A stretch of DNA of 42,252 nucleotides from Candidatus Saccharibacteria bacterium RIFCSPHIGHO2_12_FULL_47_17 (GTDB taxonomy: Bacteria; Patescibacteriota; Saccharimonadia; Saccharimonadales; UBA10212), in the NCBI GenBank assembly GCA_001790575.1, contig MGCV01000022.1, forward strand, positions 1-42,252. The letters run 5' to 3'. The position numbers and the translations under genes are program-made. Below, in pieces: positions 1 through 42,038 of this stretch. Positions within the stretch are counted from its first letter, which is position 1, and each line of letters opens with the position of its first letter. Below the pieces are notes generated by a model, which saw nothing but the letters and a program-made list of their open reading frames with translations, was not told the DNA's origin and made no database searches.

Positions 1-367
1 CCACAATACAAGGAGTGTCCCTGTAAATAGCAGAATCGTGGCATAGCAAGTTTTTTAGGAGTTCAATCATAGTTTCTGATTCCGGCCGTGGCTCCAACAC
101 ATCTTTATTAACCACGAACCGACGACCATAAAATTCACTAAAACCACGAATGTAGGCGATCGGTTCATGCTTAATTCGACGATGTATTTCTTTATTCAAG
201 CTTTTAAGTTCTTCAGGCCTCATTGCATTTTCTGGATGGGCCAGCAGCCAGGAGCGATCTTTAGCAAGCTCATCCTCGAGCAGTATGAGGACGTCCAGTC
301 GGGCTGAGCCGATGCCGGCGCTCTTTAACTTTTTTTCGGCTTGCGTCAGCCAGTCTCTAAGGTTCAT
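1..367 (-). CDS. prmC: Peptide chain release factor N5-glutamine methyltransferase, N-terminal part (cut by window edge)
   Basis: PrmC/HemK methylates the glutamine of the GGQ motif in release factors RF1 and RF2. The visible 122 residues start MNLRDWLTQAEKKLKSAGIG and carry the family's helical N-terminal domain. They include the hallmark stretch IAYIRGFSEFYGRRF followed by VLEPRPESE, close to the PrmC consensus EFYG..F.V...VLiPRPeTE. The SAM-binding domain and NPPY motif lie outside the window. It is the last visible gene of rpmE-prfA-kinase-prmC, so the enzyme is co-encoded with its substrate RF1. The start at 367 follows GGG directly and is embedded in a hairpin. An in-frame ATG at 439 would add 24 residues (MNPFRSKLS..., ending RTSNG), which resemble the leader peptides before the kinase-like gene and recO. 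The true start is therefore uncertain. Confidence 0.87.
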   Translation of the reverse strand, partial: MNLRDWLTQAEKKLKSAGIGSARLDVLILLEDELAKDRSWLLAHPENAMRPEELKSLNKEIHRRIKHEPIAYIRGFSEFYGRRFVVNKDVLEPRPESETMIELLKNLLCHDSAIYRDTPCIV

Positions 368-439
368 CCCGTTAGAAGTTCGATTCGTCTTTTGCGAATC
401 GGCAGTTTTCGTCGAAAGCTTACTTCTAAAGGGATTCAT
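366..439 (-). promoter_or_regulatory. Start-codon-linked structured element before prmC (module 1 type)
   Basis: Read on the minus strand, the arm ATCCCTTTAGAAGT (435-422) is complementary, apart from one mismatch, to ACTTCTAACGGGAT (379-366). The ATG of prmC follows the GGG of the second arm. Between the arms are two hairpins, TTTCG/CGAAA (417-407) and CGATTCG/CGAATCG (401-381), giving a three-way junction. The upstream kinase gene stops (TAG) inside the first arm. An ATG at 439 opens a frame that runs through the element into prmC. The architecture matches the first halves of the elements at 39152 and 40468, with different hairpin sequences. This is a structural prediction by eye. Confidence 0.6.
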
Positions 440-4245: not shown

Positions 4246-4353
4246 ATGAATCCCGTTAGACCTCAGCCTGCAATTTCCAAGCTAATTTTACGTCGGAGCT
4301 GTCTTAGGTTTCTAACGATAAACGATTATCATAAGCCAAGGGTGAGGTTCTAA
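4246..4353 (+). CDS. Leader peptide upstream of frr (35 aa)
   Basis: An ATG at 4246, ten bases after the tsf stop, opens a 35-codon frame. It begins MNPVRPQPAISKLILRR and ends NDYHKPRVRF. Its TAA (4351-4353) is four bases before the frr ATG. From Pro3 to the stop it aligns without gaps (33 residues) to the C-terminal half of the leader peptide at 39152. Shared residues include PVR, L.R..C.RF, N and HKPR.RF. Several DNA differences between the two are third-position changes (TTA/TTG, CGT/CGG, AGG/AGA), which hints at translation. The peptide is basic and has no recognised domain. It could be a repeat that happens to be open. Confidence 0.5.
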   Translation: MNPVRPQPAISKLILRRSCLRFLTINDYHKPRVRF

Positions 4354-4360
4354 CGGGATG
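4251..4360 (+). promoter_or_regulatory. frr leader: Start-codon-linked structured element before frr (module 2 type)
   Basis: The arm TCCCGTTAGACCTCA (4251-4265) pairs with TGAGGTTCTAACGGGA (4343-4358), with one bulged T. The pairing runs into the A of the frr start codon. A hairpin GATAA-ACGA-TTATC lies within. The last 30 bases before the ATG, including CATAAGCCAAGG, are almost identical to those at 39307-39336. The frr start codon and TAA of the leader ORF lie within or next to the 3' arm, so folding would hide the start and translation of the leader would open it. Confidence 0.65.
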
Positions 4361-13485: not shown

Positions 13486-13608
13486 TATTCAATGAACAAA
13501 TGGACTAATGAACAAATGAATGCCATTAATGCTTCTAATGATTCAATCTATTTAAACCATTACTTCATTGACTATTCATTGAACATTGAACATTGTTCAT
13601 TGATCATT
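13486..13608. repeat. Degenerate ATGAACAA / CATTGAA repeat spacer between ABC ATPase and permease
   Basis: The left part has the word ATGAACAA / ATGGACTA repeated at eight-base steps. The right part is CATTGAA / CATTGTT / CATTGAT at seven-base steps and is roughly complementary to the left part, so the RNA can fold on itself. A close relative lies at 26567-26665, also between an ATPase gene and its permease gene. No ORF is seen in it. Confidence 0.65.
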
Positions 13609-25885: not shown

Positions 25886-26566
25886 ATGATTCTACTCGAT
25901 AGGGTAACTAAGGTCTACAATCGCCGCGAAGCGGCCTTGGAACGTGTCTCCTTGCACGTTGAGCCCAAAGAGTTCGTCATTATTGTCGGGGCTAGCGGCG
26001 CCGGTAAATCAACCATGTTCAAGTTGCTGACGAGAGAAGAGAAGCCGACCTCCGGTAAAATAATTGTTGGCGGCATTGATTACGAAAACCTAAAAGATAG
26101 AGATATACCAACCCTCCGACGCAAAATCGGCGTAGTCTTTCAAGACTTCAAACTACTAAGCAATAAGACCGTCTATGAGAATGTGGCCTTTGCCCTGGAA
26201 ATTGCTGGAGCAACTAACGCCGAAATCAAACATACCGTGCCAAAAGTACTTGAGGTGGTTGGTCTAAAAGACAAAACAAATAGCTATCCCAGACAGCTTT
26301 CCGGCGGCGAGAAGCAGCGGGTAGCCATTGCCAGAGCCATCGTCCGCCAGCCCAAAATTTTGATTGCTGATGAGCCAACCGGCAATCTTGATCCAAAGCA
26401 CGCCTGGGACGTCATAAAAGTGCTGGAGAAAATCAACCGTTTTGGCACAACCGTGCTTTTGACCACCCACAATCAGGAAATCGTCAATTACCTTAAGCGT
26501 CGAGTAGTGACTATTCGCGATGGCAAGGTGGTTAGCGATAAAGCAATTGGTAACTACAAAGGATGA
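25886..26566 (+). CDS. ftsE: Cell division ATP-binding protein FtsE
   Basis: ATPase of the FtsEX complex that gates peptidoglycan hydrolases at the septum. Walker A GASGAGKST (about 37-45), Q-loop VFQDFKLL, signature LSGGEKQRVAIARAI, Walker B ILIADEPTGNLD and switch His in LLTTHNQEIV are all present. 226 residues is normal. TATACT (25872-25877) ends eight bases before the ATG, suggesting a leaderless start. ftsX follows after a repeat-bearing spacer, then a CHAP hydrolase, the likely effector of the complex. Confidence 0.97.
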   Translation: MILLDRVTKVYNRREAALERVSLHVEPKEFVIIVGASGAGKSTMFKLLTREEKPTSGKIIVGGIDYENLKDRDIPTLRRKIGVVFQDFKLLSNKTVYENVAFALEIAGATNAEIKHTVPKVLEVVGLKDKTNSYPRQLSGGEKQRVAIARAIVRQPKILIADEPTGNLDPKHAWDVIKVLEKINRFGTTVLLTTHNQEIVNYLKRRVVTIRDGKVVSDKAIGNYKG

Positions 26567-26665
26567 ATGGACGAATGAACAAATGGACGAATGAACAAAT
26601 GCATTTCAAGCATTGTTACATTGATTATTCATTGAACATTGAACATTTGTCGCATTGGTGCATTG
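26567..26665. repeat. Degenerate ATGGACGA-ATGAACAA / CATTGAA repeat spacer between ftsE and ftsX
   Basis: ATGGACGAATGAACAA is repeated in eight-base words on the left. The right side has CATTGAA-type words. The shared pieces ATGAACAAATG and TATTCATTGAACATTGAACA also occur in the spacer at 13486-13608. The repeat ends at the hairpin before ftsX. Confidence 0.65.
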
Positions 26666-39151: not shown

Positions 39152-39331
39152 ATGACCACAATTAGAAGTAGCATGTCAAAGACATCTTCTGATTTGTTTA
39201 AAACAAATCAGACTTCTAACGTTGTCTATCCCGTTAGAACTCACCTCACAGCTCTTGAATTTCTTTTGCGGTGGCGCTGTTTCAGATTTTCAGTGAACAC
39301 TGATAAACATAAGCCAAGGATGAGGTTCTAA
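39152..39331 (+). CDS. Leader peptide upstream of the kinase-like gene (59 aa)
   Basis: Open frame from ATG 39152 to TAA 39329-39331, five bases before the ATG of the next gene. The first half, containing MSKTSSDLFKTNQTSN, is almost identical to the leader at 40468. The second half (from YPVRTHL to HKPRMRF) aligns without gaps to the leader at 4246. It has no known domain and is Arg/Ser-rich. It may be translated to allow the next gene to start (termination-reinitiation) or may simply be the coding face of a palindromic repeat. It is short enough to be missed by standard gene calling. Confidence 0.5.
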   Translation: MTTIRSSMSKTSSDLFKTNQTSNVVYPVRTHLTALEFLLRWRCFRFSVNTDKHKPRMRF

Positions 39332-39339
39332 TCGGGATG
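39152..39339 (+). promoter_or_regulatory. Start-codon-linked structured element, two modules, before the kinase-like gene
   Basis: Module 1: ACAATTAGAAGT (39157-39168) pairs with ACTTCTAA..TTGT (39212-39225), enclosing ATGTC/GACAT and CTGATTTGTTT/AAACAAATCAG hairpins. Module 2: TCCCGTTAGAACTCAC (39229-39244) pairs with TGAGGTTCTAATCGGGA (39321-39337) with two bulges, with CAGTG/CACTG inside. ATG 39337 follows GGG. A near-copy of module 1 and the stem of module 2 lie at 40468-40658. Confidence 0.65.
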
Positions 39340-40083
39340 ATAAAAAAACGGGCTCGCGCCAGCATAAATGAATCCGAGCAATTATACGCTCTGCTGGCGG
39401 CTCTCAGTAACGATCTGGCTCTGCCGCTGTTGCAAATAAAAACCAGCCTTGAGATGTGGGAGCAGACCGGATTTAACCGCCAACAACTGCTAGTCAATGC
39501 CGAGAAAATGAATCTTAGTATCGATAGTGGCTTACAGTTAATCGAGGCTTATCGACTGGTTTTAAAAGCCGGCGAGGACCTCGCTCAAGAGTATGAGCCG
39601 GTAGCCATCGGGGCTGTTCTAAACGATGTGGCTCATCAACTTTCGCCATATGCCCAGAAATATGATGCTCAGCTGCGGGTTGATGTCCAAGGCCGCTTAA
39701 CGCCAGTTCTAGCCCACCAACCCAGTTTGTTTGTGGCCATGCAGATTTTAACCTCAAGCTTAATTCGTGCCCAGGCAGCCCAGGCTAACCCCAAAGAGCA
39801 ACTGGTTATTCTTGGTGCTCACCGTGGCGAAGAGAATCTAATTTCGGCTGGCGCTTTCTCGAACGTGCAAGGAATATCAGATCGCGCCTTACGTACAGCC
39901 AGGAGCCTGATGGGTAAAGCCAGGCAGCCGATACCAAATCTACCAGCTGGTGCCGCCAGCGGTGTGCTGATTGCCGACATGCTTTGCAGCTCTATGTGGC
40001 AGCCGCTGCGGGCCGCTGTCCATAGCGGCCTGCACGGTCTGGTTACCGTCGTGCCGGCTAGTAAGCAGCTACAACTGATCTAA
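39337..40083 (+). CDS. Degenerate sensor histidine kinase-like protein
   Basis: 248 soluble residues laid out like a histidine kinase: dimerisation helix hairpin (1-70), then a GHKL-like ATPase domain. The phospho-acceptor box, normally SHELRTPL, reads S-N25-DLALPL, so the His is replaced by Asn. The N box (VLxNLLxNA) appears as VAMQILTSSLIRAQ and the G boxes are weak (GLHGLVTV). It therefore probably cannot phosphorylate and may be a sensor or scaffold. The ATG at 39337 is preceded by CTAATCGGG of the structured element. One base separates it from the receiver gene. Confidence 0.7.
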   Translation: MIKKRARASINESEQLYALLAALSNDLALPLLQIKTSLEMWEQTGFNRQQLLVNAEKMNLSIDSGLQLIEAYRLVLKAGEDLAQEYEPVAIGAVLNDVAHQLSPYAQKYDAQLRVDVQGRLTPVLAHQPSLFVAMQILTSSLIRAQAAQANPKEQLVILGAHRGEENLISAGAFSNVQGISDRALRTARSLMGKARQPIPNLPAGAASGVLIADMLCSSMWQPLRAAVHSGLHGLVTVVPASKQLQLI

Positions 40084-40084
40084 G

Positions 40085-40471
40085 ATGGCACACGTCTTGG
40101 TTATAGAATCAGACCGCATTGTGGCAGACAACATTACTCAAATGTTGGAGCAGGCTGGTCATCGTACTTCTTGGCATTTGGATCCGCAGGGTGCTATTGA
40201 TGGTGCTGATTCTAAGGCCCCCGACGCCATAATTATCGATCTAATGTTAGCCGGACGCAGCGGTGTGGAGTTTTTGTACGAATTTCGCAGTTATCCGCAG
40301 TGGCAAAAATTGCCAGTCATAGTATTTTCTGATGTCACGCCCGAGGAATTTAATGGTGCCGGCACCGGCTTTAGCCAGCTAAACGTAGCGGCTTATCACC
40401 ATAAGCCGGTCACTAAACTCAGTGATTTATTAGACTCAGTTAAGACAGTTCTTCAGCCTGCGGCCGCATGA
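40085..40471 (+). CDS. Stand-alone response regulator receiver protein
   Basis: 128-residue receiver domain without output domain. Acidic pocket residues are E8 and D10 (VIESD), phospho-acceptor D52 (IIIDLMLAGRSG), Ser82 in place of Thr (VIVFSDV) and Lys107 (YHHKPV), so it looks able to accept phosphate. It begins one base after the stop of the degenerate kinase, so they are a pair. With the kinase lacking its His, phosphate would have to come from elsewhere. Its stop overlaps the ATG of the next leader ORF (ATGA, 40468-40471). Confidence 0.88.
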   Translation: MAHVLVIESDRIVADNITQMLEQAGHRTSWHLDPQGAIDGADSKAPDAIIIDLMLAGRSGVEFLYEFRSYPQWQKLPVIVFSDVTPEEFNGAGTGFSQLNVAAYHHKPVTKLSDLLDSVKTVLQPAAA

Positions 40472-40650
40472 CCCCGATTAAAAGTAGTATGTCAAAGACA
40501 TCTTCTGATTTGTTTAAAACAAATCAGACTTCTAACGGGGTCTATCCCGTTAGACCTCACCCGTGTATTTCCAGTCGATATCTGCACGTCGGACGATGCC
40601 TTTGTTATCCAACACTATACGAAGGTTGTAAATTGAAGGTTGAGGTCTAA
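40468..40650 (+). CDS. Leader peptide upstream of recO (60 aa)
   Basis: Begins at ATG 40468, overlapping the receiver-gene stop by four bases, and ends at TAA 40648-40650, five bases before the recO ATG. Its first 29 residues differ from the leader at 39152 at only three positions. The second half (from YPVRPHP) has a different interior, ending CKLKVEV. The position between two coupled genes fits termination-reinitiation. A peptide function is not implied. Confidence 0.5.
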   Translation: MTPIKSSMSKTSSDLFKTNQTSNGVYPVRPHPCISSRYLHVGRCLCYPTLYEGCKLKVEV

Positions 40651-40658
40651 TCGGGATG
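40468..40658 (+). promoter_or_regulatory. Start-codon-linked structured element, two modules, before recO
   Basis: Module 1: CCCCG (40472-40476) pairs with CGGGG (40536-40540), next to TTA/TAA and AAGT/ACTT, with the same two internal hairpins as at 39152. Module 2: TCCCGTTAGACCTCA (40545-40559) pairs with TGAGGTCTAATCGGGA (40641-40656), one bulge, ending in the recO ATG. Compared with 39152, the outer stem of module 1 changed on both sides (ACAA/TTGT versus CCCCG/CGGGG). Confidence 0.65.
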
Positions 40659-41925: not shown

Positions 41926-42038
41926 GACCTGTCCTGTTAGAGGCCACGAGAACTGTTCTAAATCGGCTATACTATTAGGTAAATACTTTCAATTATGCAA
42001 ATCACTATGACAAAAATAGGAAAGGCTCTAATGGGATG
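41926..42038 (+). promoter_or_regulatory. Start-codon-linked structured element before the last gene (diverged module 2)
   Basis: TCCTGTTAGAG (41932-41942) pairs with CTCTAATGGGA (42026-42036) throughout, two pairs being G-U. This keeps an RNA stem but would break a DNA palindrome. The ATG at 42036 follows GGG. A short frame from ATG 41995 (14 residues) ends in a TGA overlapping that start (ATGA). Interior sequence differs from the other copies. Confidence 0.55.

Follow-up and report, generated by a model that had tools for sequence, protein, structure and literature searches.

Within the window, by which we mean the whole 42,252-nt stretch of DNA that was analysed, contig C22 of the 769-kb, 41-contig genome of Candidatus Saccharibacteria bacterium RIFCSPHIGHO2_12_FULL_47_17, palindromic elements stand directly before prmC, frr, a gene read as 'kinase-like', recO and the last gene. 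The identities of RRF (frr) and RecO are backed by Pfam, a response regulator gene precedes recO, and a Pfam search with the 'kinase-like' gene (39337) returned no match. The features are as follows.

365-439, minus strand: element at prmC, with leader ATG at 437-439, arms CCCTTTAGAAGTAAG../..ACTTCTAACGGG at 368-433 and flanks ATGAA/ATGAA; it reads in frame into prmC (ATG 367-365).
4246-4357, plus strand: B element at frr, with arms at 4252 and up to 4357 and the target duplication ATGAA at 4246 and 4358; leader ORF 4246-4353, 35 codons, TAA 4 nt before ATG 4358.
39152-39224, plus strand: A unit of the composite at the kinase-like gene, an outer stem enclosing two inner hairpins, beginning with the leader ATG.
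39230-39336, plus strand: B unit of the same composite; leader ORF 39152-39331, 59 codons, TAA 5 nt before ATG 39337.
40468-40539, plus strand: A unit of the recO composite, with an ATG that overlaps the response-regulator stop codon (ATGA, 40468-40471).
40546-40655, plus strand: B unit of the same composite; leader ORF 40468-40650, 60 codons, TAA 5 nt before ATG 40656.
41926-42035, plus strand: class C copy at the last gene (ATG 42036), ACCTGT followed by CCTGTTAGAGGCC..GGCTCTAATGGG, with no in-phase leader start and no target duplication.

The elements at the kinase-like gene and recO are composites, in which a 67-nt hairpin unit (A) is joined to a 107-110-nt unit (B), and their A parts are 93% identical. 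An earlier note, made from the sequence alone, had described leaders with 35, 59 and 60 codons that stop 4-5 nt upstream of frr, the kinase-like gene and recO, and a frame at prmC that continues into the gene; these descriptions are exact. It had also placed the last gene in the same set, and both arms are indeed present there, but the missing in-phase leader start and target duplication put this copy in a different sub-class. Of the contacts that it reported between leaders and other frames, the one at recO is the ATGA overlap listed above. Further class C copies occur elsewhere (G000:C6:10969-11070; L099, L106, L120, L121, L122, L168, L248, L249, L301 and L303) and have a constant left flank, A(C/T)(C/T)TGT, before CCCGTTAGA, a right end that is the ATG, no leader start and, mostly, no duplication; class C is a distinct sub-class, perhaps a domesticated one. 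Two spacers of the window lying 13 kb apart (13490-13600 and 26557-26650) contain related short tandem repeats of the AATGAACAAATG type.

Copies at gene starts

DNA search and arm scans located 33 insertion loci in the window genome, whose genes were predicted by a simple ORF method, and all 33 copies lie directly before the ATG of a gene; this number includes a diverged B unit (C26:20860) on the strength of its typical leader ending, ..LMG* (CTA ATG GGA TGA). The relatives were searched with a palindrome-only pattern (CCCGTTAGA..TCTAAYGGG) that does not require an ATG, in place of an ATG-requiring pattern, which is biased. Within the window's own family, this search found copies in eight further Candidatus Saccharibacteria genomes, and 46 of these 47 copies are on a start codon, counting two that the script scored as 'none', the gene being rpmJ (38 aa). 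Gene starts make up about 19% of the RTGRR sites outside gene bodies and the placement of the copies is therefore not due to chance (binomial P = 1.5e-20 for 31/33 in the window genome and 2.5e-32 for 46/47 in the relatives). The association with start codons that the earlier note had seen holds in this family, and selection against other sites cannot alone explain why the family has copies at starts only and none in spacers. The copies stand before unrelated genes (frr, recO, rpmJ and many others). At recO, rpmJ, a GDPD-like gene and others, identified from their N-termini and by Pfam for RecO only, the element sub-type varies from species to species, a variation that points to repeated insertions at one start.

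Among 59 unselected copies from other Patescibacteria, 19 are at an ATG, 11 precede GTG or TTG (few with long genes) and 29 lie elsewhere, so that start-codon specificity across all Patescibacteria is rejected. The same arms were also seen in contigs titled Omnitrophica/Omnitrophota, Planctomycetes, Desulfobacterales and Deltaproteobacteria (L101, L114, L115, L151, L104 and L091), several with ATG-side duplications; these are MAG contigs and possibly contamination.

A TATAAT-like box lies 3-12 nt upstream of 36% of the ATG-start ORFs of the G000 genome, against 11-14% in control intervals, which suggests that leaderless mRNAs are common in the window organism. Element-bearing genes would then often be leaderless, and translation of the leader would matter to them. 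Such boxes occur just upstream of the leader start at 21/44 and 10/31 element sites, not clearly enriched over the 36% background, and insertion mainly at the promoters of leaderless genes was rejected for this reason.

Arms, target duplications and empty sites

The arms consist of CCCGTTAGA plus about 3 nt, 12-14 bp in all, and form terminal inverted repeats such as MITEs possess; the element ends are Y...R. Three variable arm positions pair in 95-97% of copies, with exchange between A-T, G-C and T-A, compared with 70-72% after shuffling. Target duplication was scored by comparing the 4 bases that precede the variable first base of the element with the 4 bases that follow its last base. All four are identical in 40/44 copies of the family (shuffled mean 14.9, maximum 25) and in 38/59 copies of other Patescibacteria (shuffled mean 6.8, maximum 15), including 17/29 of those that are not at a start; a target site duplication, again as in MITEs, is therefore present, with the sequence TGRR in the Saccharibacteria family and TNNA in other Patescibacteria. 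The last base of the element is the first base of the start codon, such that elements with C..G or A..T ends yield a GTG or TTG start (L252, L279, L280 and L284). Unoccupied orthologous starts are present in the window genome as ATGAACGTTGTAGTC, ATGGATTTTTTGG and ATGAAAGTTAGC, where the relatives have ATGRA-element-ATGRA (L125 versus C38, L152 versus C14 and L133 versus C27), and copies occur in tandem at L173 and L179. From the 4-bp duplications and the unoccupied sites it follows that the hairpins are insertions. The earlier note had offered palindromic mobile repeats as the alternative to control by a leader, and the duplications, the empty sites and the tandem copies, together with the full-length versions encoding a GIY-YIG nuclease that are described below, bear that alternative out.

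Insertion of the IS200 type makes no target duplication, a point of relevance to whether these palindromes could be moved by an IS200-like tyrosine transposase in the manner of REP sequences and RAYT. Genes for Y1_Tnp are present in 15/31 relatives, the window genome included, but the arms are absent at eight Y1_Tnp loci and on contig C32 of the window genome, G394 has 8 copies and no Y1_Tnp, and the 4-bp duplications are unlike an IS200-type insertion. A RAYT gene flanked by the repeat and present wherever the repeats are was thus not found, RAYT was rejected as the mover and we regard this explanation as highly improbable. REP/BIME elements with their RAYT transposases are likewise abundant palindromes able to form hairpins (PMC3733652); the present elements differ from them in having no RAYT link, no visible GTAG/CGTC end tag and a 4-bp target duplication.

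The leader reading frame

Of the 31 copies in the window genome with an in-phase leader start, 27 have leaders ending at -4, -5 or +4 of the gene's ATG, one fuses with its gene (prmC) and three are broken. In the relatives 38/43 leaders end at -4 or +4 (27 and 11, respectively), that is, with the stop of the upstream ORF within a few nucleotides of the downstream start, as in translationally coupled leader ORFs. The leader frame of the relatives contains 7 stops in 1,230 codons and the two other frames contain 93 in 1,216 and 102 in 1,214 (Fisher 2e-21 and 5e-24). Three gap-free length classes of 19, 13 and 11 copies, with mean identities of 78, 65 and 57%, have no in-frame stop at all, although in a neutral simulation on the class trees 7.3/19, 10.0/13 and 8.0/11 copies are expected to be closed and not one of the 300 runs per class ended with zero (p<=0.0033). 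Sequence diversity is about equal at the three codon positions; in the absence of a codon-position signal a conserved leader peptide was rejected, and, taken with the zero count of stops, this means that the copies have retained a stop-free frame and not a peptide. Outside the Saccharibacteria family the leader frame is open in 19/86 copies and the other frames in 10 and 12, so that leader openness is rejected as a general trait. Start siting and frame keeping are a lineage-specific trait of the Saccharibacteria branch, and the element itself is widespread.

The right arm, TCTAACGGGATGA, offers an exit in all three frames: a TAA 4 nt before the ATG, a TGA inside ATGA, or fusion. The open frame and the positions of the stops fit termination-reinitiation in the Saccharibacteria family, where ribosomes would pass from the leader into the gene. 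The proposal of the earlier note that leader translation feeds ribosomes into the next gene is supported to this extent, and inside this family, by frames that stay open despite 22-43% divergence, by the lack of codon-position bias and by stops at -4, -5 or +4; the further idea that the leader regulates the gene by opening the hairpin is not needed. A Shine-Dalgarno-like GAGG is present in the 3' arm of the CCTCA/TGAGG sub-class and is not general.

A translational bypass has also to be considered, in which the ribosome would leave the duplicated ATG region and land in the gene beyond the hairpin, in the way known from T4 gene 60 and the mitochondrial byp elements. Known bypass elements are accompanied by mobile nucleases, and here a sequence is duplicated at both ends with a hairpin between. 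However, the element restores at its end a start codon from which the complete frame of the gene itself can be read, which makes a hop unnecessary, and an open leader with its stop at the restart codon fits reinitiation better; we give bypassing scarcely any credence.

A cis-acting regulatory RNA, either a riboswitch or a leader-peptide attenuator in which the hairpin hides the gene start until leader translation opens it on a signal, would account for the strength of the fold (a mean z of about -4.2 relative to mononucleotide shuffling), the compensatory changes in the stem and the open leader. It sits poorly with the evidence for insertion, with copies that precede unrelated genes and, in other Patescibacteria, often lie off starts, and with a leader peptide that is not conserved; moreover, no known RNA family in Rfam matches at the gathering threshold or E<=1. 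We consider it quite improbable. Less easily dismissed, though still unlikely, is a plain selfish repeat that targets start codons and owes its open leader to recent copying from a single open source. Duplications and empty sites demonstrate the mobility that this requires and there is almost no bias towards open leaders outside the Saccharibacteria family, but inside it the copies of each class are too unlike one another (57-78% alike on average) for the 7-10 closed copies per class expected under neutrality to be absent by recency, and frames 1 and 2 of the very same copies are full of stops. The earlier note had reasoned that copies mostly away from starts, with frames broken as often as chance, would favour such a repeat: this is roughly what is seen in other Patescibacteria and is not the case in the Saccharibacteria family. 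Its two readings, leader coupling and mobile repeat, are not exclusive and each is right in part.

Full-length copies and the GIY-YIG nuclease

Full-length members of about 272-295 nt carry a single gene between the arms, coding for a GIY-YIG endonuclease of ~90 aa. The full-length copy of the window genome (C36:17949-18222, 274 nt) lies before a gene read as rplU and has perfect 13-nt arms and ATGAA flanks; its GIY-YIG frame is broken by a frameshift. A pattern combining the left arm with the GIY motif matched 14 of 380 Patescibacteria genomes, with one match for the reversed control, and a protein search yielded many full-length cases. In all, a GIY-YIG ORF lies between the arms at 19 of 58 loci that have both. 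L395, L396 and L397 are intact, 272 nt long and situated at start codons in the family with perfect duplications. Their frame, M(S/N)PVRA..GIY-YIG..FLALTG*, takes the host start codon as its first codon (in L395 the sole ATG before the GIY motif) and the right arm as its last codons, and its TGA overlaps the restored ATGA. The nuclease matches Pfam PF01541 at 57-60 bits and has the GIY..YIG motif with the catalytic Arg, Glu and Asn of the superfamily, Y12, Y23 and R33 being invariant and E69 and N83 conserved at 90% or more; its nearest solved structures are UPF0213 proteins (PDB 1zg2 and 1ywl). The top PF01541 matches, L211-L240, were rejected as arm carriers, since none has arms and the carriers form a separate GIY-YIG group. 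At L398, in a genome of the same genus as the window genome (G380), an A unit abuts an element that carries a GIY-YIG gene, an arrangement that corresponds, in full-length form, to the A+B composites of recO and the kinase-like gene.

With an arm score of 11 or more as the threshold, inverted arms flank 50% of 82 GIY-YIG loci and 0.5% of random positions. These arms are of several unrelated sequences (CCCGTTAGA, CCCAGCACTTACG, CCCTGTGAAA, CCCTGTTAAA, CCCCGCACATAAC and CCCCCTGGAA), and genomes with CCCGTTAGA palindromes are richer in GIY-YIG genes (median 7 vs 3, p=6e-5). GIY-YIG genes between other arms (CCCAGCAC.., CCCTGTGAAA, CCCTGTTAAA, CCCCGCAC.. and CCCCCTGGAA) were observed at L391, L393, L394, L402, L410-L412, L414, L415, L418, L419 and L421, pointing to a larger superfamily of such elements. 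No GIY-YIG gene with CCCGTTAGA arms was found in the searched assemblies of G385 (19 copies) and G394 (8 copies), where the mover may have been lost or may act in trans.

On these sequence comparisons, the short copies are most plausibly non-autonomous relatives of the full-length element, and the GIY-YIG nuclease is the candidate for their transposition. The inserted hairpins belong to one palindromic mobile family; we consider the whole reading probable, in which this nuclease is the putative mover, start codons are the niche and the leader would be coupled to the gene behind it. The nuclease would act on the hairpin ends and on a TNNA/TGRR target and so move the elements, which in the Saccharibacteria family would insert between the first and second bases of a start codon (A^TGRR). 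Duplication of the target would rebuild the ATG of the gene, and the old ATG, with its promoter or ribosome binding site, would remain in place as the start of a leader ORF that the element supplies. Because TCTAACGGGATGA has its exits in three frames, ribosomes starting on the old ATG would finish at the start of the gene and reinitiate there. Insertions with a closed leader would be lost, and the frame would consequently stay open while the peptide drifts. To our knowledge, 4-nt staggered insertions are not known for GIY-YIG enzymes.

Several known systems invite comparison. Like bacterial MITEs and their parent insertion sequences, the family has terminal inverted repeats, target duplications and short copies beside a full-length element with the same ends; that full-length relative, unlike the parents of MITEs, codes for a ~90-aa GIY-YIG nuclease, with a presumed role in mobility, and not for a DDE, HUH, serine or tyrosine transposase. 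A homing endonuclease spreads through repair into a single cognate site and lacks inverted ends and target duplications. The elements described here, in contrast, occupy many unrelated sites and have both, so that the single cognate site and lack of terminal repeats of a free-standing homing endonuclease are not what was found, although the seg genes of phage T4, which are free-standing GIY-YIG homing endonucleases (PMC2988022), are similarly mobile single-gene nucleases lying between genes. Rickettsia palindromic elements (RPE; Ogata et al. 2000, reviewed in PMC10969869) are palindromic repeats of ~100-150 nt that lie inside ORFs as in-frame fusions with a conserved peptide. Both are short palindromic repeats found in small genomes, and both preserve an open frame when they enter genes, but the present family inserts at the start codon, with a leader that ends at the restart codon, and has a nuclease-encoding full-length form; prmC is the only fusion among the 31 copies with a leader and, with diversity equal at the three codon positions, the encoded peptide is not conserved.

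Also comparable are the GIY-YIG insertions and short (<200 bp) ORF-less insertions in CPR rRNA genes described in PMC11270868, which fit no intron class and have a non-homing look. Compared by description only, they resemble the present elements in being patescibacterial, GIY-YIG coding, non-intron and scattered over non-conserved sites, with short ORF-less forms alongside; that description, as far as it was available for comparison, concerns rRNA genes only and does not include arms, duplications or a link between long and short forms. GIY-YIG genes are also among those predicted to have been donated by Patescibacteria to other bacteria (PMC12455944). No bacterial GIY-YIG transposon and no palindromes that target start codons were found described in the published open-access literature, to which the search was confined.

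We know of no GIY-YIG nuclease that serves as the sole enzyme of a transposon-like element in bacteria. On balance we lean towards the view that the full-length form is a minimal bacterial transposon of about 270-300 bp, with a GIY-YIG nuclease of ~90 residues as its only enzyme, which occurs widely across Patescibacteria, bounded by arms of many sequences. One Saccharibacteria branch would have specialised in start codons, its nuclease being translated from the start codon of the host gene, with the terminal repeat as its last codons and a stop overlapping the restored host start, so that the element and the host gene are expressed from one start signal. If this is true, a transposon-like element near the lower size limit for autonomy would have a GIY-YIG nuclease as its sole enzyme; many scattered GIY-YIG genes and palindromes of Patescibacteria would be accounted for, and the same may apply to the insertions, GIY-YIG or short, that were reported from their rRNA genes and left unclassified. 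The start-codon branch would then illustrate cleanly how selfish DNA persists in a gene-dense genome by letting ribosomes pass, and its copies would provide dozens of natural replicates on the requirements of termination-reinitiation, in bacteria in which about one third of starts look leaderless.
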